Shown here piece after piece: positions 8,282 to 17,431 of a stretch of DNA of 64,000 nucleotides; within the stretch, counting starts at the first letter, position 1, and each line of letters opens with the position of its first letter. The stretch lies in NCBI RefSeq assembly GCF_005938655.1, contig NZ_VCQT01000034.1:1-64000 (forward strand), given 5' to 3'. The notes under the pieces are model-generated. The model did no database searches. It was given only the letters and a program-made list of their open reading frames with translations, and was not told the DNA's origin. The stretch comes from Alloalcanivorax gelatiniphagus (GTDB lineage Bacteria; Pseudomonadota; Gammaproteobacteria; Pseudomonadales; Alcanivoracaceae). The position numbers and the translations under genes were made by a program.

Positions 8282-9397
8282 TTACGCCTCCACCTGGAGT
8301 TCATAGCGGGTGCTACGTCCCCCGGCCGGCAGGCGGCGTAAACAGCCTTTTTCCAGCAGCTCCGCCAGATCGCGGGTGGCGGTGGCCTTGCTCACTTTGG
8401 TCAGGTTTTTGTATTTGCTGGCATTGATACCGTGGAGAAACTCCTCGCCGGCGCCATCCAGCAACCGGTTCAGCACCTTTACCTGACGCTCGTTCAACAC
8501 GGTCTGCGCGTGCCGCTGCCAGAACCGTGCTTTGATCAGCACCCGATCAATGCGATTCAGCGCCTGCTCCAGGGCCTCCTCCAACACCGACAGAAACCAC
8601 CCCAGCCAGCCCGTGATGTCCATCTCGCCTTTCTGGGTACGCTCCAAATGCTCATAATAGGCCGGCCGCCGGGCCATGATGGCAGCGCTCAGGGAATAAA
8701 ACCGGATGGACTGCCGCTCCGCCTGGGCCAGGGCCAGGTCCGTCACCGCGCGAGTTACACGGCCATTGCCATCGTCGAAGGGATGCAGCGTCACCAGCCA
8801 AAGATGGGCGATACCCGCGCGAAGCAGCGGATCGAGCCCTGCCGGTGGATCATTAAACCAACCCAGAAATGCCTCAAGCTCCGGCTCCAGCCGATCCCGG
8901 GGCGGCGCTTCGAAATGCACCCGAGGCCGATCCAGACGCCCGGACACCACCTGCATGGTCTGCTCACCGCGTAACTCACCGATCCGAATACGGGAGAACA
9001 GCTCCGGGCCCTCGGGAAACAGCGCCGCCTGCCAGCGGCACAATTGGTCCAGCGTCAGCACGCCGTCCGGCTTCCGGGTAGCCTCCACCAGCAGACCCAC
9101 CAGCGCCTCGGACCGCTCCGTCGCCCGATCCGCCATGCCCGCCCGCTCAAGCCCCAAATGACGGGCAACGGAAGAACGCACCGACCCCACATCCAGATGC
9201 TCGCCCTCGATCTCACTGGTGCGGATGGCATTCTGGATCAGCGCGTCCATCTCCACCTCGAGATCCGCCGCCTGCGACTCCGCATCGGTACGCCCGAGCA
9301 AGCGCCCCTGCAGCAGGCGCACTCTGTCCAAACACCCGCGCAACGCCGCTTCATCCCAGCGAAAACGGGGCCAATCGGACTGTTCCCAGATCATCAT
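8282..9397 (-). CDS. Fic family protein (AMPylase-type) with DUF4172 N-terminus
   Basis: 371 residues. An N-terminal DUF4172 segment (IWEQSDWPRFRWD...LLGR) precedes a Fic core with the canonical HPFDDGNGR motif beginning at His205. Fic enzymes transfer AMP or another nucleotide moiety to target proteins. An inhibitory motif (S/T)xxxE(G/N) is visible as T60-SEI-E-G, placing it in the self-inhibited class with an N-terminal inhibitory helix. The C-terminal about 90 residues look like a winged helix (ITKVSKATATRDLAELLEKG-like), suggesting DNA binding and autoregulation. Starts at 9397 or the adjacent ATG at 9394; GAGGTG lies upstream. First element of the island. Confidence 0.88.
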   Translation of the reverse strand: MMIWEQSDWPRFRWDEAALRGCLDRVRLLQGRLLGRTDAESQAADLEVEMDALIQNAIRTSEIEGEHLDVGSVRSSVARHLGLERAGMADRATERSEALVGLLVEATRKPDGVLTLDQLCRWQAALFPEGPELFSRIRIGELRGEQTMQVVSGRLDRPRVHFEAPPRDRLEPELEAFLGWFNDPPAGLDPLLRAGIAHLWLVTLHPFDDGNGRVTRAVTDLALAQAERQSIRFYSLSAAIMARRPAYYEHLERTQKGEMDITGWLGWFLSVLEEALEQALNRIDRVLIKARFWQRHAQTVLNERQVKVLNRLLDGAGEEFLHGINASKYKNLTKVSKATATRDLAELLEKGCLRRLPAGGRSTRYELQVEA

Positions 9398-9458
9398 GAG
9401 CCGAATAGCACCTCTAATCGAATCAATTAATGAGCCGATTATGGCAATTATTCGGCTC
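9398..9458. promoter_or_regulatory. Inverted and direct GAGCCGAAT repeats between fic and the tacA remnant
   Basis: GAGCCGAATA (9398-9407) is a perfect inverted match to TATTCGGCTC (9449-9458), and a near direct copy GAGCCGATTA occurs at 9432-9441. The AT-rich segment lies immediately upstream of the Fic start and of the divergent antitoxin remnant. The Fic protein's C-terminal winged helix or the former TacA-type antitoxin could bind here. Confidence 0.5.
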
Positions 9459-9670
9459 AAGGCCAAGTTAAGGCGGTGCTGTTACGGCGAGCGGCCAACG
9501 TCCGTGGCCTGGCTTTAGGGGAGTGTATTCATGACAGCGCCAAGGTGCGGACTCAGCACCTACTCAACCAGAGAACAACCACCCGCGTTAGCAACGACGA
9601 GTTCTGTCAGGTGTTGGACGCCATTGAGCCCCCGGCACCCACCAAAGACCTCGTCGGCGCGCTGCGGTAG
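9441..9670 (+). pseudogene. tacA-type (DUF1778) antitoxin remnant
   Basis: The frame ending at 9670 reads LLRRAANVRGLALGECIHDS and then VSNDEFCQVLDAIEPPAPTK, which follows the DUF1778/TacA pattern (RAA...G.tL.eFi..SA, then an LDAPxAP-like tail). The likely N-terminus, MAIIRLKAKL from the ATG at 9441, is in another frame, so the gene seems broken by a frameshift near 9470. No GNAT (TacT) toxin gene follows. It is divergent from fic. The family assignment is by pattern only. Confidence 0.5.
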
Positions 9671-9893
9671 GCAGCCATTTCAACGTCTGGGAAACAGACC
9701 AACCCCGGCACACGAATACACGGTTACTGCTGCTACCTCTGAGCCTGGTGGCGTTCACGGCTTGTAGTTGCGCACGGGGAGGCTGGTAGATGAAGCCGGG
9801 ACGGGGGAATCGAGAAATCACCACTAGGAAAAGGGAAAGGCAGAAGCTACCGAAGATCCGGCCTCTCCCCGCATTCTTCAGACTGGCTATGGG
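9671..9893. other. Gene-poor spacer after the antitoxin remnant
   Basis: No convincing gene. One frame contains LLLLPLSLVAFTACS followed by Cys-Ala, resembling a short lipoprotein signal, but it has no start codon; a following ATG opens a 36-codon frame of basic composition. This may be decayed toxin or prophage sequence. Confidence 0.3.
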
Positions 9894-11003
9894 CTAAATC
9901 GCTGTTGGCGGAAAAGGAAGCACATTGCTCGTCAACTGCCATTGGTCATCCGCCAAAACATCCTGTGAGTCCGTAAGAACTCCAACGATATCTCGGGATA
10001 TTCCTAATCTTTCGAAAACCCCTCCGAAATTCGACCCAAAGGTCTCGCCCAATAGCTGAAAGGCATTCCTAAGCAACTCCGGCTTTTCACGAACAACCGA
10101 ATCATCGAGTTCCTCACTTCGAGAGCCCTTCTTGCTCAGAGTAATATTGGCCGTGCGATACTGACTGGGAGTTATCAAGTTGGCTTGGCGCAGCCGAAAA
10201 ACCACTGCCCGCATACTCACACCCCACCTGACCTTGAGCTGCTTGATGCACTGCCAATTAACACGGTTACCGGGTCTATAGCTCGCTAATAGTGCCTCCT
10301 GTGGCAGCAAGAAGTAGCTCGCAAATTGATCGGCTTGAGATTCAGTATCCTTGCAGCCGGATTCAACACCTTTATGCATAACCATGTGGCCGAGTTCATG
10401 GGCCAGATCGAACCGCAGCCTCGGCGCGCTTTTGGTACTGTTGATAATGATGACCGGTCGCTCTCTATGGACCGACAAAGCATCCACCTTCTCCGATATA
10501 TCGCCCAGCGACGTTATCACGCCACCAGAGTATTCAATTACCCTCGCAACGCTTTCTATAGGCCCGTTTCCGAGTCCCCAGTATTGTCGACACTTCTTAG
10601 CCGCCATGGCGGCGTCACGGCCTGACTCGATTGGCCCGAAATCCGGAAAATTCACCGACGGCAAATCGAGATACTGAGAAAGCACCTCAACAACCTTATG
10701 AACCAGGGTTATACGAGCTGTGCACTCTCGCACGGAATACATTGGCACTGAGGACAGTTTCCTAAAATGGCATTCCTCGTCCTTCACTGTATTGCCGACT
10801 GGTTTTCCAAAAAACTGAGTGGTGACCCCTAGCTCATAACTAAGAGCCTCCAGTAGATCGGGGGATGGCTTCTTATCGGTTGTCTCAAGCTGACTCAGGT
10901 ACTGCCGAGTTGTCCCAACTCGTTCTCCTAGCTCTTGTAAAGAAAGGCCCGACGTAAGCCGGGCAATTCGTAAGTTATCTCCAAAAAAGTCGGGAGCATT
11001 CAT
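9894..11003 (-). CDS. XRE-type HTH fused to ImmA/IrrE metallopeptidase
   Basis: 369 residues. An N-terminal helix-turn-helix (about 8-65, SGLSLQELGERVGTTRQYLS) is joined to an ImmA/IrrE zinc peptidase with HELGH (H202, E203, H206) and the third ligand in ESQADQFA (E221). ImmA-type proteases cleave or inactivate repressors; HTH-ImmA fusions are found as antitoxins or regulators in toxin-antitoxin and anti-phage modules. The gene starts 6 bases after the end of the 213-residue partner, so the two are co-transcribed. The C-terminal about 100 residues have no recognised domain. Confidence 0.88.
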   Translation of the reverse strand: MNAPDFFGDNLRIARLTSGLSLQELGERVGTTRQYLSQLETTDKKPSPDLLEALSYELGVTTQFFGKPVGNTVKDEECHFRKLSSVPMYSVRECTARITLVHKVVEVLSQYLDLPSVNFPDFGPIESGRDAAMAAKKCRQYWGLGNGPIESVARVIEYSGGVITSLGDISEKVDALSVHRERPVIIINSTKSAPRLRFDLAHELGHMVMHKGVESGCKDTESQADQFASYFLLPQEALLASYRPGNRVNWQCIKQLKVRWGVSMRAVVFRLRQANLITPSQYRTANITLSKKGSRSEELDDSVVREKPELLRNAFQLLGETFGSNFGGVFERLGISRDIVGVLTDSQDVLADDQWQLTSNVLPFPPTAI

Positions 11004-11009
11004 TTATTG

Positions 11010-11651
11010 TCAGCCTCCAGAATCTTCAATCCCCTCCGAACCGCGACTTTCCGCCTGTTCCTCTCCAGTCTCCGTCTTCGGAGTCCGCCGAACAGTAACA
11101 GGGGCAGCCGGCAGTGAAACCGGTTCATAATCTTCAGCAGCCACACCAGCAATAGGAGCAAGCATGCCGTCAATCGGCACCTCACGCTGAGCGACGACCT
11201 GGCCATAGTCGGTAAGCCCTACAAACTGAAGGGAGACAACCTCCCCTTCAGGACCTGTTTCCAATGCGTAGGACCAGACCAAATTCGGGATACCTTCTAG
11301 ATCCTCGAAAAGACCTAACTGCTGAAGCTCAGGATAGGAGACCGCGCGAGAAAGAATATTTTTCTTCGGCTTTCCTGTGGTCCCATGAAACATATTCACA
11401 GGCGTGTCGCCGATGGCGAAAATGAACTTCAGGGACCCGTCTATCAATGACAGCCAAGGTAACTCGCTGCGTTCGACAGCCTGTACGATTCTGCCCATTC
11501 TCCAAGTATGGGATCTCGTACCGATGCTCCAGCCGTTATCGAATGGCTCTTCCCGCTCGATTACACCGTTGTGCGCCTCGACAAGAAGTCGACCCACAGC
11601 GTCGATGCGGTCGTCAGTCAGTTGATCATTGATTTCCGAGGGTTCATGCAT
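11010..11651 (-). CDS. Uncharacterised partner of the XRE-ImmA gene
   Basis: 213 residues, soluble, no family recognised with confidence. The first about 150 residues look like a compact alpha/beta domain (WRMGRIVQAVERSELPWLSL, VNMFHGTTGKPKKNIL); the last about 60 are Pro-, Glu- and Thr-rich and probably disordered. An ATG at 11666 is possible, but the ATG at 11651 has GGAG about 9 bases upstream, whereas the earlier one lacks a Shine-Dalgarno site. It precedes the HTH-ImmA gene in a tight two-gene operon, the usual toxin/antitoxin layout. Function unknown. Confidence 0.75.
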   Translation of the reverse strand: MHEPSEINDQLTDDRIDAVGRLLVEAHNGVIEREEPFDNGWSIGTRSHTWRMGRIVQAVERSELPWLSLIDGSLKFIFAIGDTPVNMFHGTTGKPKKNILSRAVSYPELQQLGLFEDLEGIPNLVWSYALETGPEGEVVSLQFVGLTDYGQVVAQREVPIDGMLAPIAGVAAEDYEPVSLPAAPVTVRRTPKTETGEEQAESRGSEGIEDSGG

Positions 11652-11683
11652 CCCGCTTTGCTCCATGCCGGTTACGCACCCAA

Positions 11684-11730
11684 ATTATAGGCAATTTCTA
11701 TTTCTGTCAACTAACCTGAAAAGTGTCAAC
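11684..11730 (-). promoter_or_regulatory. Promoter with TGTCAAC direct repeats for the ImmA module
   Basis: On the minus strand TTGACA (complement of 11705-11710) is followed after 15 bases by a perfect TATAAT (complement of 11684-11689). The GTTGACA heptamer that contains the -35 box recurs at 11724-11730, 19 bases upstream, about two helical turns away. The spacing suggests a two-site operator for the HTH protein. The 15-base spacer is shorter than ideal. Confidence 0.55.
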
Positions 11731-11813
11731 CTCTATGGAAATTGTAAACCAGCAATCAGCGGAGCAGCCCCCGCTCATGGGCATGGAAAGCGCCTGAAAT
11801 CGGTACAGCATTG

Positions 11814-12114
11814 CTAAAGCATCTCATAGTGCTGCGCACGGCCAACCCAATGGCCATCACCTCCAGGACCTTGCCCGGCAAGGTAAGACGCCGTGACGTC
11901 CTCACCCACGAACGCCTTGATGGCGTAGGGAATCAAACGCCATCAGTGTGATGAACTCCACCTCGTCGGCGTGCTCACGGCGCAGCAATTGAATACTGCG
12001 GTAGCCGGGCACCTGCTTGGCTTCGATGCCGGGGAAGATTTCTTCTTTGAGTAGTGCTTCGTAGCGGTCGGCGTTGGCGTGGGTGGTCCAGCCGTGCCAG
12101 ATGCGTTTGATCAT
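11814..12114 (-). pseudogene. Frameshifted antibiotic-biosynthesis-monooxygenase-like (ABM) gene
   Basis: The frame from the ATG at 12114 encodes KRIWHGWTTHANADRYEALL and QVPGYRSIQLLRR, a typical ABM-like dimeric ferredoxin fold, but stops after about 70 residues. The expected continuation (YAIKAFVGEDVTASYLAG) is found in another frame immediately after FDSL, and the usual ending AQHYE occurs just before a stop at 11814. The sequence GATTCCCTACGCC looks like loss of two bases near 11,933; a second shift may follow. A relic rather than a working gene. Confidence 0.65.
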
Positions 12115-12148
12115 GGTGCTCTCCTCAACCGGGGGCCCGACGGAATCA

Positions 12149-13084
12149 TTATGGCTCCACGGTACTGGCTGACAAGAGACGGAGCACCTCCTCCAGACGG
12201 GCCACCGCCGCCGCCCGTTTCTCCGGAGTCATCGCATTGATATTGCGAAGTTTCCACTGCACAGCGGGCAGCGATTCGGCTTTCGGTACCGGACACCGTT
12301 GCCAATCGGGCTCGCCGCGTTTGAAGGAAAGGAGGAACTCAATGTCTGCGTCGGTAAGGTGGGCAGCCAGGGCTTTGAGTAAGGCATCACCAACAGCTTG
12401 CAGCGTCACGGCGGAGACGGCCTCCCGGCTCATGCCGGCAAACTCATCGGCGTGTACCTGAGCCAGGGCCTTCCAGCGAGGAGCGAGCAGCTCCGCCATC
12501 GGCCGGGGGTGGCTCATCAGATAGACCAGAAAGCCCTCGAAGAGCGACCGGTCAATGCCTTCGTTTTCCAGTAACAGGTGAACATCGAAAAGATCACGGG
12601 GGTGCTGGCGATCCAGGGCCGCACACAGCTTGCCGCCATACAAATCCGGCAGCGCCAGCACCGACGCTGATGCGAAACCGAACTGATCTTCCACGGCCTC
12701 GCTGACGTCACGTTCTTCCGGGACGTGCAACGAGCCACGGACGACCGGGTTCACCTCCACTTTGACCTGAACCCGCCCCTGACGAACGATCAGCTTGAGA
12801 TCGTCATCCCCTCGGTTGTGTTGAAGGCAGCTAACCCCGGGCAATTGGGTTTTGATGCGCCCTTGTATCCGGGTCAGGGCCTCCCGGGAGCGTCGCAGAG
12901 CGTCGTCGCGCCCGTGGTCCGGCAGGTACGCCAGGTCAATGTCCACGGACAGCCGCGGCATATCGCGGACGAAGAGATTAATGGCTGTGCCGCCCTTCAG
13001 GGCAAAGTCTTTCTCTTCCGCCACGAGCGGCAGAACCCGCAGCAGCAGCCGCACCTGATCCGCATAGCGTGCATCAAACGTCAT
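12149..13084 (-). CDS. abiEii: AbiEii/AbiGii-type nucleotidyltransferase toxin
   Basis: 311 residues of the type IV AbiE toxin family, a DNA polymerase-beta-like nucleotidyltransferase. Catalytic motifs are LKGGTAINLF (G31-G32, N36) and SVDIDL (D48, D50), with the downstream HPRDLFDVHLL block. Members inhibit growth by modifying tRNA or by GTP-dependent nucleotide transfer. The first codons overlap the end of the antitoxin gene by 11 bases, so translation is coupled. Intact by length and motifs. Confidence 0.88.
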   Translation of the reverse strand: MTFDARYADQVRLLLRVLPLVAEEKDFALKGGTAINLFVRDMPRLSVDIDLAYLPDHGRDDALRRSREALTRIQGRIKTQLPGVSCLQHNRGDDDLKLIVRQGRVQVKVEVNPVVRGSLHVPEERDVSEAVEDQFGFASASVLALPDLYGGKLCAALDRQHPRDLFDVHLLLENEGIDRSLFEGFLVYLMSHPRPMAELLAPRWKALAQVHADEFAGMSREAVSAVTLQAVGDALLKALAAHLTDADIEFLLSFKRGEPDWQRCPVPKAESLPAVQWKLRNINAMTPEKRAAAVARLEEVLRLLSASTVEP

Positions 13085-13850
13085 CCCCCCACTCCCTGGG
13101 TATCGTTACCTGAAGGTCCCTGTCCAGCCGCCCGCCCGGATACAACTGGCGCTTACCCGCGCCCAAGTTGATACGCCCCGTGTCCAGGCGCCGATACCAA
13201 GCATGACCGTGATGGCGGGCCAGCAACAAGAAAGCCCGCTTCACTTTGACCGAGCGACACGCCTCCAGCAATACCTGCAACCGGCGGGGGCGCAGCGTCA
13301 CCAGCCCGCCGAACGTCTCCGACACCAGACTGCCAAAGAACGCCTCGCCGGACAGCGCATAGAACCACTCCAACGCCGCGCGCTCTGGCGTCGCCGCCTG
13401 GATATCGAAATCCCGCCCCGGCGGCGTATAAGGCTGGATACTGTCCGCAGGCGCCCGGTCGAACAACGCGTACTGCTGATAGCTCACCCTCACATCCCAG
13501 TCGTACCCGGCGAACCAGCGCGGCAGCCGCCGGCCGGGCTCACCCCAGAGAGTGAGCGCTTCCTCACCAAAGCGCAGGAAATGGCTACCTTCACTGAGCT
13601 CCAGCGCCGACAACCCGCCCAACCAGAACGCAGGCCCCTCCCCCAGCGGCTGCTGCAAGCCGTACAGCCCTCCCTGCCAATTCACCTTGTCACCTGCCCG
13701 CCGGTAGGCGCCGTGCCCCACGCGCGCCAACCAGCCCTCCCGCGCCCAACGCCCGGCGGCCACGCTGGAGACACCATGCGCCGTCAGCCAGGGCTGGGAG
13801 AGGACCGCACCAGCGGGCCATTGCTGGAGGAGCTGGTTTACATTTTTCAC
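13074..13850 (-). CDS. abiEi: AbiEi-family antitoxin / transcriptional regulator
   Basis: 258 residues. The N-terminal winged helix (NQLLQQWPAGAVLSQPWLTA...GVSSVAAGRWAREGWL) and the following domain (YRRAGDKVNWQGGLYGLQ) match AbiEi antitoxins with the AntitoxAbiEi_3-like C-terminal domain. In type IV systems the antitoxin does not bind the toxin but represses the operon and counteracts the toxin's effect. It lies directly upstream of and overlaps the toxin gene. A perfect inverted repeat stands upstream of its start. Confidence 0.87.
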   Translation of the reverse strand: MKNVNQLLQQWPAGAVLSQPWLTAHGVSSVAAGRWAREGWLARVGHGAYRRAGDKVNWQGGLYGLQQPLGEGPAFWLGGLSALELSEGSHFLRFGEEALTLWGEPGRRLPRWFAGYDWDVRVSYQQYALFDRAPADSIQPYTPPGRDFDIQAATPERAALEWFYALSGEAFFGSLVSETFGGLVTLRPRRLQVLLEACRSVKVKRAFLLLARHHGHAWYRRLDTGRINLGAGKRQLYPGGRLDRDLQVTIPREWGDDV

Positions 13851-13881
13851 TGATATGAACCCATGAAGAACATATTAAGCC

Positions 13882-13911
13882 ATAAATTAAACCATCGGCA
13901 GTTTAATTTAT
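13882..13911. promoter_or_regulatory. Perfect 11-base inverted repeat upstream of abiEi
   Basis: ATAAATTAAAC (13882-13892) and GTTTAATTTAT (13901-13911) are exact inverted copies separated by 8 bases, about 30 bases before the antitoxin start in an AT-rich segment. AbiEi proteins are known to repress their operon through inverted repeats in the promoter, so this is the likely operator. Confidence 0.65.
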
Positions 13912-14010
13912 AGTCCAAAATATCCCATAAATGCACATATCGGCTTATTTTTTAAACTAACCGCAGGGATTTCACCGGAGATGCAGAGCAACGACCGTGC
14001 CCTGCCTCGT

Positions 14011-14847
14011 TCAATATCCAGCCCACAAAGCGGCCTCGGCGGCTTTCGCCACCTCTACCAACTGAGTATTAAAACGCGCGGCATCTTTAGCGTAGTGCGC
14101 GCGCCGGTGACAATTGGGGCACAGAGCGATCACGTTCTCTGGGTGATCCGGGCCACCGTCGGCCACACGATGAAGGTGGTGGCATTCCAAATAGGGACCT
14201 TGTGAAGAGAAGAACGGCGCCGGCTGGGTACAGCCCTCGCAATAGCCATTGGCACGCGCCAACGCATAGCGGCGAATGGCCTCGGCCCGGTAGTAGGCAA
14301 CTCGCATTCGAGTCTGTGGCTCGGCGGTACTAACGGCCTTCGGAAGCGCCGCCTCTCGAAGCTGCGTCAGCGAATAGCGCTTCAGCCTATTTGTATCACC
14401 CGGGTCGTAGAGCGGCCGCGCCTCCCGCACCAACGTGGAAGGAGGCGACGAATTCACATCGAGACGAAAGACCAAGGCCTGACGCAGCTCGCCATCCCGA
14501 TCAGGTCGCTCTTCTTGGTGGTAACCAATACAGTCCGCCTGCCCAACATAGCGGACGTAACCACGGCGCGTGTATTCGAAGAGGTGCAGCGCTTTGCCAT
14601 CTTGCTGATGGTGGGCAATGGCCCGATTGCCGCCGGCGAGCGCCATGTCCCCGACTTGCCCCGCCCCGGTGTAGAAGAATACGCCGTCTTTAAATTCATC
14701 GGTATAACCGTGCCGCCCACCGGTCTCTGAGACGAACAGGAACACATAGGGTGCGTTCTTTGGCGTGGAGATACCGCCTTGCTGCTGCCCGCCATACACT
14801 TCATGGATCTGCGAACGGCGGTGATATTCTTTCCCCACTTCAAACAC
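14011..14847 (-). CDS. HNH endonuclease with N-terminal ScoMcrA-like SRA domain
   Basis: 278 residues. The N-terminal half begins with GKEYHRRSQIHEVYGGQQQG and GISTPKNAPYVFLF, the pattern of the SRA-like domain in ScoMcrA-type modification-dependent restriction enzymes. The C-terminal half is a zinc-bound HNH nuclease: YCEGC (C203, C206), ECHHLHRVADGG (catalytic H223/H224 region), and CPNCHRRAH (C243, C246, H247). Members cut DNA carrying modified bases or phosphorothioates. It appears complete and single-gene, upstream of the AbiE pair in the same orientation but separated by a promoter region. The modification recognised cannot be read from sequence. Confidence 0.8.
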   Translation of the reverse strand: MFEVGKEYHRRSQIHEVYGGQQQGGISTPKNAPYVFLFVSETGGRHGYTDEFKDGVFFYTGAGQVGDMALAGGNRAIAHHQQDGKALHLFEYTRRGYVRYVGQADCIGYHQEERPDRDGELRQALVFRLDVNSSPPSTLVREARPLYDPGDTNRLKRYSLTQLREAALPKAVSTAEPQTRMRVAYYRAEAIRRYALARANGYCEGCTQPAPFFSSQGPYLECHHLHRVADGGPDHPENVIALCPNCHRRAHYAKDAARFNTQLVEVAKAAEAALWAGY

Positions 14848-15118
14848 TGCGCTTCCCCGAGCCGACAGGCCTAACTAGACGCTGAGGCCAGAGCCAGAGC
14901 GTCAACGACTATTGTTCGTCAGGGATCATAGCGGGTATGTGCTCTTGGTTGCAGCCCCGCAAAAGGAAGAAAGCAATGAATAAATCTATGGGTACGGAAA
15001 ACAGGAAAGCCTTAAAACGGCCGTAAAGCGAGGCGGGTCTCTGAGCGACCCTTCACTAGCGCATAAGGGAAGTAGGCCACGAAGCGGCCCGCCTCCTCCG
15101 TTCAGGCCTATACAAACT
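14848..15118. other. Intergenic region with several small dyads
   Basis: No gene is supported. GACGCT (14878-14883) pairs with AGCGTC (14898-14903). Farther on AGGCGGG (about 15031) pairs with CCCGCCT (about 15088), enclosing CCCTT...AAGGG, which could fold as a nested hairpin below higA, possibly its terminator. A 15-codon frame from 14976 has AAGGAAG upstream but nothing else in its favour. Confidence 0.3.
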
Positions 15119-15436
15119 TCAAGCAGCAACCAATGGGCGGGCCACATCGAGCTTAGCCGCCAGTATCTCGCTATGCTTGGCCAGCCACATGTCGTTGAGT
15201 AGCTGCAAGTTGAGCCAGAACTCCGGCGTGGTCCCCAGTACTTTGGCAAGCAGGAAAGCCGTTTCGGCGGTGACGCCGCGGCGGTTACCACAGAGCTCGT
15301 TAACTGTTTTCCGGCCCACGCCCATTGCCTTAGCGAGCTCGCCTTGGGTAACCCCCAGGGGTTCAAGAAACTCTTCTTTGAGCATCAAACCAACACTCGT
15401 GGGTTGATGCGCCGGAATTCTCAATGCCTCAGCCAT
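15119..15436 (-). CDS. higA: HigA-type HTH antitoxin
   Basis: 105 residues. HTH at about 28-60 (GVTQGELAKAMGVGRKTVNE), followed by the HigA signature GNRRGVTAETAFLLAKVLGT and TPEFWLNLQ. It neutralises HigB and represses the operon. Start chosen at 15436 because GAGG lies about 7 bases before it; the earlier ATG at 15448 and a longer frame into higB have weaker sites. The order toxin-then-antitoxin is the reverse of most TA pairs and typical of higBA. Confidence 0.9.
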   Translation of the reverse strand: MAEALRIPAHQPTSVGLMLKEEFLEPLGVTQGELAKAMGVGRKTVNELCGNRRGVTAETAFLLAKVLGTTPEFWLNLQLLNDMWLAKHSEILAAKLDVARPLVAA

Positions 15437-15455
15437 AACGCACCTCATTTTCTCA

Positions 15456-15746
15456 TCAACGGTAGGTGTGTGGGTCCAGATAGAGACCTCGGGCCTCACC
15501 GTGGTTCCACTGAAAGACCAGGCGGTATTGCTTGTTCACCCTAATTGAGCACCAACCCTTTAGCTTGCCCTTCAGATGCTCGAACTTATTGCCAAGAGGA
15601 ACCATAAGATCCTTCTCCTCCTCAGCAGCATGAATGATTTGAAGCTTTCGCCTTAACGCACTCTCTAAGTTGCTAGGAATATGCCGTGTTGGTTGGCCAC
15701 CAAAGTAATAGTCATCCAGCCATTGGTCTCGAAAGTCACTAATCAC
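15456..15746 (-). CDS. higB: HigB-type mRNA interferase toxin (RelE/ParE superfamily)
   Basis: 96 residues with a GTG start at 15746. The beginning VISDFRDQWLDDYYFGG, then ALRRKLQIIHAAE, and the end IRVNKQYRLVFQW plus DPHTYR are the standard HigB blocks; these toxins cleave mRNA on the ribosome. It lies 19 bases before higA. The start codon abuts a strong dyad and promoter, so expression is probably tightly autorepressed. Confidence 0.9.
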   Translation of the reverse strand: MISDFRDQWLDDYYFGGQPTRHIPSNLESALRRKLQIIHAAEEEKDLMVPLGNKFEHLKGKLKGWCSIRVNKQYRLVFQWNHGEARGLYLDPHTYR

Positions 15747-16393: not shown

Positions 16394-17392
16394 TCAAAAT
16401 AACCCAATACTATTGATGCAGTTAGCAACCAACCCAGCCACCACACTAAAAACCCAAGACGCAACAACTAACCCCCACCTATAAGACATTCGCCTCTTAG
16501 CCCTTTTTCTCCTTTTAACGTCTTGCTCTGACAAAACAATAAAAGACCTCAGAGGGAGATACATAGAAAATTCTGACACTCTATATATCCAGTTCAAAAA
16601 AAGCACAAGAATCGACAAGACCGCCCCACCCACCAATAACTCTTTAAAGCAACTGGCCACTCCATCTGAAAGATTTCTGCTCGCCGACAAATAACTGGGG
16701 ATATCTTTATAGAAATCGACACAGAAAAACAATATCGAGAACATCGCCACAAGGGAGCAAATGGTCAACAAAATCACATCCGAATGATCTCTCAACCATC
16801 TTTTAATTCCAGAAGTTTTTTCTACAAATGTTTCGCCATGATTTTTCAACAAACTTCCGACATCCGTAGCCCATGTCCGGTTTGTATAATCTATTTTGTA
16901 CTCAAAAACACCATCAACAAAGCGTCGGCTGCCATTTCTACTATCCCCCTCAGCTATTACAGCCACCTCAATTTCTTGCTTTTTAGGAACTGTTTCAGCT
17001 GGGAATTTTATTAAATAAGTAAAATTCAGAACCACCTCAAAAGGATGACAAGAATCGACAGGGCTATAACTTCTAAACTTACTAACATCATTGTGCGTAA
17101 TCGAGGTTCCATTACTATAATGGACAGTAATAGAGAAATGGACCAAACTCCCCTCGTTTTGCTCACCAACTCGAGTGTTGACCAGATGAAACACATTCTC
17201 TATTTCATTAGAGGTTACATCAAAAACGCCATCAACAATCCCTTTTAAAACTTGGGTTTTTCCTAGCAGACCTGATACAAATCCGCCGAACTGTGAAGGC
17301 TCACAAGGAAGAACCACATAGTGACCTTCATCCCCTCTCAGAACAGCAGCGGACAATGCAGCAGCATTATCACCTTCGCTTTCTCCAGACAT
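16394..17392 (-). CDS. AT-rich gene for an uncharacterised membrane protein
   Basis: 332 residues (341 if the TTG at 17419 is used). The first about 205 residues are soluble and beta-rich (VHFSITVHYSNGTSITHND, HPFEVVLNFTYLI), then three hydrophobic helices at about 213-233, 255-275 and 310-332 with a basic loop (KRRKRAKRRMSYR) before the last. No family recognised. Base composition is far more AT-rich than its neighbours, including A-rich codons, indicating recent transfer. A promoter and a terminator flank it, so it is probably transcribed alone. An effector or immunity role in a defence module is possible but unproven. Confidence 0.75.
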   Translation of the reverse strand: MSGESEGDNAAALSAAVLRGDEGHYVVLPCEPSQFGGFVSGLLGKTQVLKGIVDGVFDVTSNEIENVFHLVNTRVGEQNEGSLVHFSITVHYSNGTSITHNDVSKFRSYSPVDSCHPFEVVLNFTYLIKFPAETVPKKQEIEVAVIAEGDSRNGSRRFVDGVFEYKIDYTNRTWATDVGSLLKNHGETFVEKTSGIKRWLRDHSDVILLTICSLVAMFSILFFCVDFYKDIPSYLSASRNLSDGVASCFKELLVGGAVLSILVLFLNWIYRVSEFSMYLPLRSFIVLSEQDVKRRKRAKRRMSYRWGLVVASWVFSVVAGLVANCINSIGLF

Positions 17393-17431
17393 ATTCCCAA
17401 CCCCAAAATGCAACCACAAAACGATAACTAG

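Follow-up and report, generated by a model that had tools for sequence, protein, structure and literature searches.

RosmerTA, reportedly first described by Millman et al. in 2022, is the closest described relative of the gene pair considered here, rmrT and rmrA, which lies in a 64,000-nucleotide stretch of Alloalcanivorax gelatiniphagus (assembly GCF_005938655.1, contig NZ_VCQT01000034.1, positions 1 to 64,000), referred to as the window. In the work of Ernits et al. (2023), ImmA proteins serve as the RmrA antitoxins of a variety of RmrT partners, the toxin gene coming first in 58%, and the RosmerTA of the Gordonia phage Kita is toxic, depolarises membranes and protects against a few coliphages (PMC10440598). 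A RosmerTA of Streptococcus thermophilus has narrow anti-phage activity (PMC12322248), and prophages of Acinetobacter baumannii carry RosmerTA (PMC12421847). Makarova et al. (2009) predicted toxin-antitoxin-like systems in which fused Xre-COG2856 proteins stand beside toxins (PMC2701414), and known relatives of the RmrA protease cleave helix-turn-helix (HTH) repressors (PMC10904395, PMC10440598).

The window pair has the gene features of RosmerTA, namely an RmrA match, an adjacent RmrT match and a conserved two-gene neighbourhood, the exception to the last being a clade of solitary RmrT homologues. We consider it probable that the pair is a RosmerTA toxin-antitoxin and anti-phage module acting through repression, neutralisation, self-cleavage and release of RmrT. 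Its main elements are:

11010..11651, minus strand: rmrT, encoding the 213-amino-acid partner, predicted to be soluble and predicted to be the toxin (PADLOC RmrT PDLC03929, phrog_5786)
9894..11003, minus strand: rmrA, encoding a 369-amino-acid protein with an HTH domain, an M78/ImmA metallopeptidase domain and a helical C-terminus; predicted antitoxin and autorepressor
11705..11749, minus strand: likely operator, three GTTKACA direct repeats with a period of 19 bp
11684..11711, minus strand: likely promoter, TTGACA in the gene-proximal repeat and TATAAT at 11684-11689

The partner gene comes first and the HTH-metallopeptidase gene second, with a 6-base gap, and the coordinates agree with those of an earlier annotation made from the letters alone (the sequence-only reading). 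From its first ATG the rmrT open reading frame (ORF) spans 11010-11666 and encodes 218 residues; the 213-residue start at an internal ATG (11651) looks the better choice, aligning with the N-termini of its nearest relatives.

The sequence-only reading had taken the partner as unrecognised and the module as a candidate undescribed one, and had left a relation to RosmerTA open. Both of these claims fall and the relation is borne out: the partner matches the PADLOC RmrT model PDLC03929 (E-value 1.2e-19, residues 7-197 of 218) and phrog_5786 (1.1e-15), and its neighbour matches the PADLOC RmrA model PDLC03943 (9.6e-100, residues 6-355 of 369), so that, as in RosmerTA, a partner gene adjoins an HTH-ImmA/M78 gene and both proteins match their models over nearly full length. 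All 89 non-redundant partner homologues match PDLC03929, and four also match a second RmrT model. Judged by these profiles, the partner is already catalogued as RmrT and the system is known as RosmerTA; the HTH-ImmA pair, the one likely promoter and the conserved neighbourhood of the earlier interpretation stand. No Pfam or NCBIfam family scores above its cut-off for the partner, and the search against solved structures gave no credible match. A housekeeping identity was considered and rejected, the 213-residue protein matching nothing in Pfam at E<=0.1 and the 89 homologues giving only single weak matches; the structure prediction and profile search that the sequence-only reading had proposed thus yield an RmrT match and no housekeeping family. 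Single-protein RmrT scans of genomes and viral contigs found nothing, RmrT seeming too divergent for such scans, and a subfamily scan with an RmrT alignment (A7) found no relatives.

The association of the two genes is strongly conserved. Scans from the RmrA side took the best 80 of 220 genome loci and the best 80 of 91 viral loci; many of the viral loci are near-identical, and the resulting 160 reduce to 76 at 85% identity. RmrT lies just upstream on the same strand in 152 of the 160, with gaps of -35 to +66 nt, and in 147 it occupies one frame of normal length; after redundancy is removed it adjoins RmrA in 73 of 76 loci. The eight loci lacking RmrT comprise five from Photorhabdus, one at a contig end (L177) and two distant relatives (L180 and L181). 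Neighbour conservation, which had been suggested as a check, is thus apparent, and rarity beside an ImmA gene, the outcome held to count against the idea, was not seen. The RmrT and RmrA distance matrices are closely correlated (Mantel r=0.921, n=84 non-redundant pairs, with a maximum of 0.117 in 999 permutations). Copies of the window's own locus (L001, L002, L005 and L018) were excluded, as were sequences sharing more than 85% (RmrT) or 90% (RmrA) identity and two of 13 plasmid and phage matches (H5 and H9, second strains of species already included). Alignment A4 omits the loci with split or short RmrT (L067, L077, L121, L137 and L141), the Mantel test omits L045 and L141, and the tree omits L190, L205 and L211.

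The pair is accessory. RmrA at more than 30% identity occurs in the window's own genome only among 13 genomes of its genus, and the partner is found in 2 of 94 genomes of relatives, one being the window's own. Outside this subfamily, relatives of RmrA far outnumber this RmrT: 436 plasmid records match RmrA and 12 match RmrT. A pair of the L146 type is absent from Escherichia coli genomes at 'near' search sensitivity.

RmrA combines an HTH domain (residues 11-64; Pfam HTH_3, 1.4e-9) with an M78/ImmA metallopeptidase domain (170-271; Peptidase_M78, 7.1e-20) that contains HELGH at 202-206 and E221 and is followed by a helical C-terminus; it falls below the cut-off of the NCBIfam spr1629 repressor/antitoxin model (145 vs 335 bits). 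H202, E203, H206, H210 and E221 are invariant in 89 of 89 non-redundant RmrA proteins. In the AlphaFold2 model (mean predicted local distance difference test score, pLDDT, 92.7; predicted template modelling score, pTM, 0.90) the protease part is structurally closest to CapP (Z 13.2, 159 residues aligned, root-mean-square deviation (rmsd) 3.1), followed by PprI bound to single-stranded DNA (ssDNA; Z 11.7), and the HTH part to the CapH N-terminal domain (Z 11.8), with other HTH repressors nearly tied. Because the protease aligns best with CapP and the HTH with CapH, RmrA looks like a fusion of the two, and on these models it resembles CapH plus CapP/PprI in one chain. R195, present in 86 of 89 proteins, precedes the first zinc histidine by 7 residues, the same distance that separates the ssDNA-binding Arg85 of PprI from His92 (PMC10904395). 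A Phe-Arg step in the linker after the HTH (F80-R81) is invariant in all 89, and the model has a short strand at residues 78-80. A hydrophobic-Arg step also occurs in the cleavage-site loop of DdrO, a loop that binds the protease in strand form in the published model (PMC10904395); by analogy, our guess is that RmrA would cut itself at this linker.

These likenesses have limits. CapH and CapP are two proteins that regulate a CBASS (cyclic oligonucleotide-based anti-phage signalling system) operon, whereas in RmrA both are joined in one chain, next to just one partner gene. PprI (IrrE)/DdrO and ImmA/ImmR share the M78 protease fold and HExxH site but have a separate HTH repressor as substrate; RmrA fuses HTH and protease, and a conserved partner gene precedes it. 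The COG2856-Xre fusions with PIN or RelE partners are likewise predicted toxin-antitoxin operons with a fused HTH-protease, but the window partner matches neither PIN nor RelE in Pfam. Within RosmerTA, the Kita RmrT (D5) is predicted to be membrane-located and depolarises membranes, whereas the window RmrT has no hydrophobic stretch by hydropathy scan, the two being set apart here by description.

Upstream of rmrT, three repeats on the gene strand follow one another at 19-bp intervals: GTTTACA at 11743-11749, GTTGACA at 11724-11730 and GTTGACA at 11705-11711. One promoter with TGTCAAC repeats 19 bases apart had been described in the earlier annotation; the repeats are real and one promoter is likely, but there are three copies and not two. 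In the 4.2-Mb genome the two-unit 19-bp pattern is confined to two overlapping positions at this locus, and the reversed control pattern has no match. Within 150 bp upstream of rmrT, 86 non-redundant paired loci (window included) together carry 124 exact matches to GTTKACA in the orientation of the gene and 1 on the opposite strand, compared with a mean of 1.7 and a maximum of 5 in 200 rounds of mononucleotide shuffling; from the rest of the same loci 0.66 would be expected for 85 loci, where 121 are observed. The repeats are not due to chance. At least one exact copy is present at 67 of the 86 paired loci and at least two at 49, and the spacings between copies are 19 (27 pairs), 38 (14), 33 or 34 (23) and 37 (1). 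TTGACA is the -35 consensus, and a single GTTKACA per promoter is therefore unremarkable; it is the extra copies and their spacing that are remarkable. None of the 31 listed rmrT loci of the solitary clade (some of them duplicates) has the motif upstream, and a paired locus (L207) from the same family-wide search has two copies spaced by 19 bp, which ties the motif to RmrA. We infer from this distribution that RmrA may bind the repeats. In the open-access literature searched, outside which most subscription papers fall, we found no account of a GTTKACA-type operator for RosmerTA. The predicted -35 box lies within the gene-proximal repeat, and the spacer to TATAAT is 15 nt, below the usual 16-18; a consensus promoter scan limited to 16-18 nt spacers did not list this candidate. 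A different array is seen upstream at L061, L062, L103, L108, L111 and L120, in enteric bacteria and viral contigs, where GTTGACAAA is followed by TTTGCAC or similar and the unit occurs twice at a distance of 34 bp.

The pattern of gene loss bears on which gene is the toxin. RmrA is intact with RmrT missing or broken at five Photorhabdus loci, three with RmrT remnants (L079, L098 and L099) and two with none detected (L089 and L092). At loci of the Providencia alcalifaciens type (L077, L121 and L137) RmrT is split at one shared frame break beside an intact RmrA; a split RmrT frame in a metagenome-assembled genome (MAG; L067) may be a sequencing error, and L141 retains only a short RmrT piece. 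A search from the RmrT side gave 45 loci, from 8 of 198 genomes of the Klebsiella oxytoca family and 37 viral contigs, many already seen. Near-full-length RmrA is present at 43 of them, two being split loci of the Providencia type; of the other two, L247 ends at a contig end, leaving its RmrA status undecidable, and at L254 RmrA is gone and RmrT is itself interrupted by stops and a frame change. Earlier RmrT-first matches had given 12 paired loci and 4 solitary ones. Across the RmrA-first and RmrT-first loci of paired lineages, L247 apart, no intact RmrT is shown to be without RmrA. Decay of RmrT beside an intact RmrA, with the reverse not seen in these lineages, is what a toxin and its antitoxin would be expected to show.

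The computed bases for the mechanism that we favour are thus the gene pair, its family matches and pairing, the intact, invariant zinc site, the conserved repeats, the likeness of RmrA to CapH plus CapP and PprI, and the decay pattern. The HTH of RmrA would bind the array of three GTTKACA units, including the one overlapping the -35 box, and so repress the rmrT-rmrA operon, and RmrA would also neutralise the RmrT protein. Its CapP/PprI-like zinc protease would be triggered, most plausibly by ssDNA derived from phage or from damage, as for CapP and PprI, and RmrA would then cleave itself near or in its HTH part and be inactivated. The operon would be derepressed and RmrT, predicted to be soluble, would be freed, with the infected cell's growth coming to a stop; toxicity and phage defence would follow in this way.

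The predicted partner has a folded N-terminal part and a tail of mostly low confidence from about residue 160, broadly in line with the folded part and disordered tail read from the letters. The model (pLDDT 85.7, pTM 0.72) consists of two long helices, three strands, two helices and three strands ahead of this tail, and mean pLDDT per ten residues is 92-98 over residues 1-90, 61-86 over 91-120, 89-96 over 121-160 and 58-84 thereafter, the best-modelled part of the tail being residues 171-190 (75-84). A Kyte-Doolittle scan finds no membrane segment, with a maximum 19-residue mean of 1.1 and a highest value of 1.73 among the 89 homologues. Well-conserved polar residues are R15, D38, R86, R127 and E131. 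The window protein belongs to a subclade with 100/99 support, the other members being from Marinobacter salinexigens, an Alcanivorax MAG, Marinimicrobium and a Kiritimatiellae MAG, in which R86 is replaced by N or S, R127 by S, A or T and W156 by R, all three together. We note that in this subclade (L003, L022, L023, L030 and the window) the changes remove an arginine from one predicted strand and place one on another.

Several observations weigh against the mechanism as proposed. The window RmrT itself departs at three well-conserved positions (R86N, R127S and W156R), and this branch may or may not act like other RmrT proteins; no functional experiment on the branch was found in the literature searched. 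The self-cleavage site and ssDNA response of RmrA are inferred by analogy with its relatives. Exact GTTKACA is lacking at 19 of the 86 paired loci, several of which have close variants, GCTTGACA and GTTGACG among them; the correlation of RmrT and RmrA distances is in part due to shared descent; and the cases of broken or lost RmrT are few and partly clonal. Among described systems, the Kita antitoxin neutralises its toxin only partly (PMC10440598), and two distant S. thermophilus RosmerTA homologues are inefficient against most phages (PMC12322248). Above all there are the solitary RmrT homologues (L184-L206, L210-L213, L009, L012, L013 and L019), which form one clade of 28 rows with 100/99 support. 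In one family, probably the Acetobacteraceae because the clade includes named Roseomonas and Pseudoroseomonas plasmids, 26 of 150 genomes have an RmrT match: 23 are solitary, one (G900) is paired and two are weak and unconfirmed by profile. No RmrA relative is present genome-wide at E<=1e-10 in 19 of the 23 solitary genomes, and the other four have only distant ones at 32-37% identity. The ratio of nonsynonymous to synonymous substitution rates (dN/dS) is 0.05-0.37 in 11 hand-picked solitary pairs, from which these genes seem to be maintained by selection; the conserved RmrT residues are kept in all four solitary homologues checked, and one stop falls inside the matched stretch in 4 of the 23 best matches (L192, L196, L198 and L204). 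Either this clade has been detoxified or RmrT-like proteins are not toxic in themselves, and it is this counter-evidence that holds our confidence in the full mechanism at probable and no higher. Copy number also varies, with six RmrT matches, some of them fragments, in G868 and four near-full-length copies in G918; for those extra copies that did not become loci, RmrA was sought genome-wide. A mobile element behind these copies was considered and set aside, as no neighbour common to the clade is seen in 1.5-kb flanks; neighbours are shared only within small groups (for example L009/L184/L186, L185/L190, L192/L193, L203/L212 and L210/L213).

The solitary clade, without RmrA or repeats, mostly intact, sometimes multi-copy and with low dN/dS in the tested pairs, also lends itself to a reading in which RmrT is a regulated effector or co-factor, such as a sensor of a phage signal, and the pair an inducible switch like CapH-CapP that involves no protein neutralisation. 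The resemblance of RmrA to CapH and CapP, which form a transcriptional switch (PMC10904395), fits this idea, but paired lineages repeatedly show RmrA without intact RmrT and never the reverse (L247 being undecidable), and the Kita RmrT is toxic (PMC10440598); we regard a non-toxic RmrT as unlikely. If RmrT is a toxin, a nuclease of the PD-(D/E)XK type might be proposed for it. VIA-align with the RmrT model places R.SwaI at the top (Z 6.2, 129 residues aligned, rmsd 3.8), and its rows include DrdV, RecU, HincII, Holliday resolvases, DXO and a tRNA splicing endonuclease, which with R.SwaI we take to share one PD-(D/E)XK fold. Only R.SwaI exceeds Z 5.0, however, with the unrelated Rep15 (5.0) and PAP phosphatases (4.8) just below, and the program cautions that Z values below 8 are commonplace. 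Foldseek finds nothing in PDB or BFVD at E<=0.001, and the homologue alignment shows no conserved D...(D/E)xK set on the predicted strands, which together make such a nuclease quite doubtful.

The tail of RmrT offers another role for the protease, which would cut it and so activate or destroy RmrT, or would use it as a docking site; cleavage of the tail had been suggested by the sequence-only reading. The tail is predicted to be flexible and carries a moderately conserved V-x-L-P-x-P-x-V stretch before its charged end (residues 178-187; V178 in 57 of 89 RmrT proteins and L or I at 180 in 76). The rest is poorly conserved, part of the stretch persists in solitary homologues lacking RmrA (L009, L012 and L013), and the precedent substrates are HTH repressors (PMC10440598, PMC10904395), so that the suggestion finds little support and we think a part for the tail very improbable. 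A more far-reaching variant, which we put forward tentatively and think somewhat unlikely, is that this branch of RmrT represents a new class of soluble effector, perhaps built on a catalytically altered PD-(D/E)XK-like scaffold, controlled by an ssDNA-sensing, self-cutting CapH-CapP chain, and that it was freed from antitoxin and operator in a single event in one family, where it has been kept as a solitary and sometimes multi-copy gene.

The pair sits in a cluster of defence and toxin-antitoxin-type genes on the minus strand (window positions 8282-15746), identified by Pfam and PADLOC:

8282-9466, minus strand: Fic protein matching the SoFic model
12149-13850, minus strand: AbiEii and AbiEi
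14011-14847, minus strand: HNH protein matching a type IV modification-dependent restriction (mREase_IV-like) model
15119-15746, minus strand: HigBA-like pair, a HigB-like toxin with an HTH antitoxin

The AbiE, SoFic and mREase_IV-like neighbours are suggestive of an anti-phage role for the pair. Between rmrT and AbiEii a short ORF (11902-12114, minus strand) may represent a truncated small monooxygenase-type protein. G+C content over the pair is 51-53%, and of the remaining 22 kilobases in the first 24 kb, 17 reach at least 60%; this dip fits a horizontal arrival of the pair without proving it. There is a second dip (48-59%) at 14-18 kb, within which, at 16-18 kb (48-53%), lies a 341-amino-acid ORF (16394-17419, minus strand) with apparent hydrophobic segments and no Pfam match at E<=0.001.

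Placing the pair in a known defence family answers the question that the sequence-only reading had posed, and the conserved three-repeat array predicts where RmrA binds. In the accessible parts of the literature searched we found no RosmerTA report on the substrate of the invariant RmrA protease, be it RmrA, RmrT or both. The solitary clade provides a natural comparison for what makes RmrT toxic or harmless, and if its effector was indeed freed in one family, RosmerTA toxins would be a source of domesticated cellular proteins. If RmrA is gated by ssDNA, RosmerTA would be the third system with that trigger, after CapHP and PprI-DdrO.

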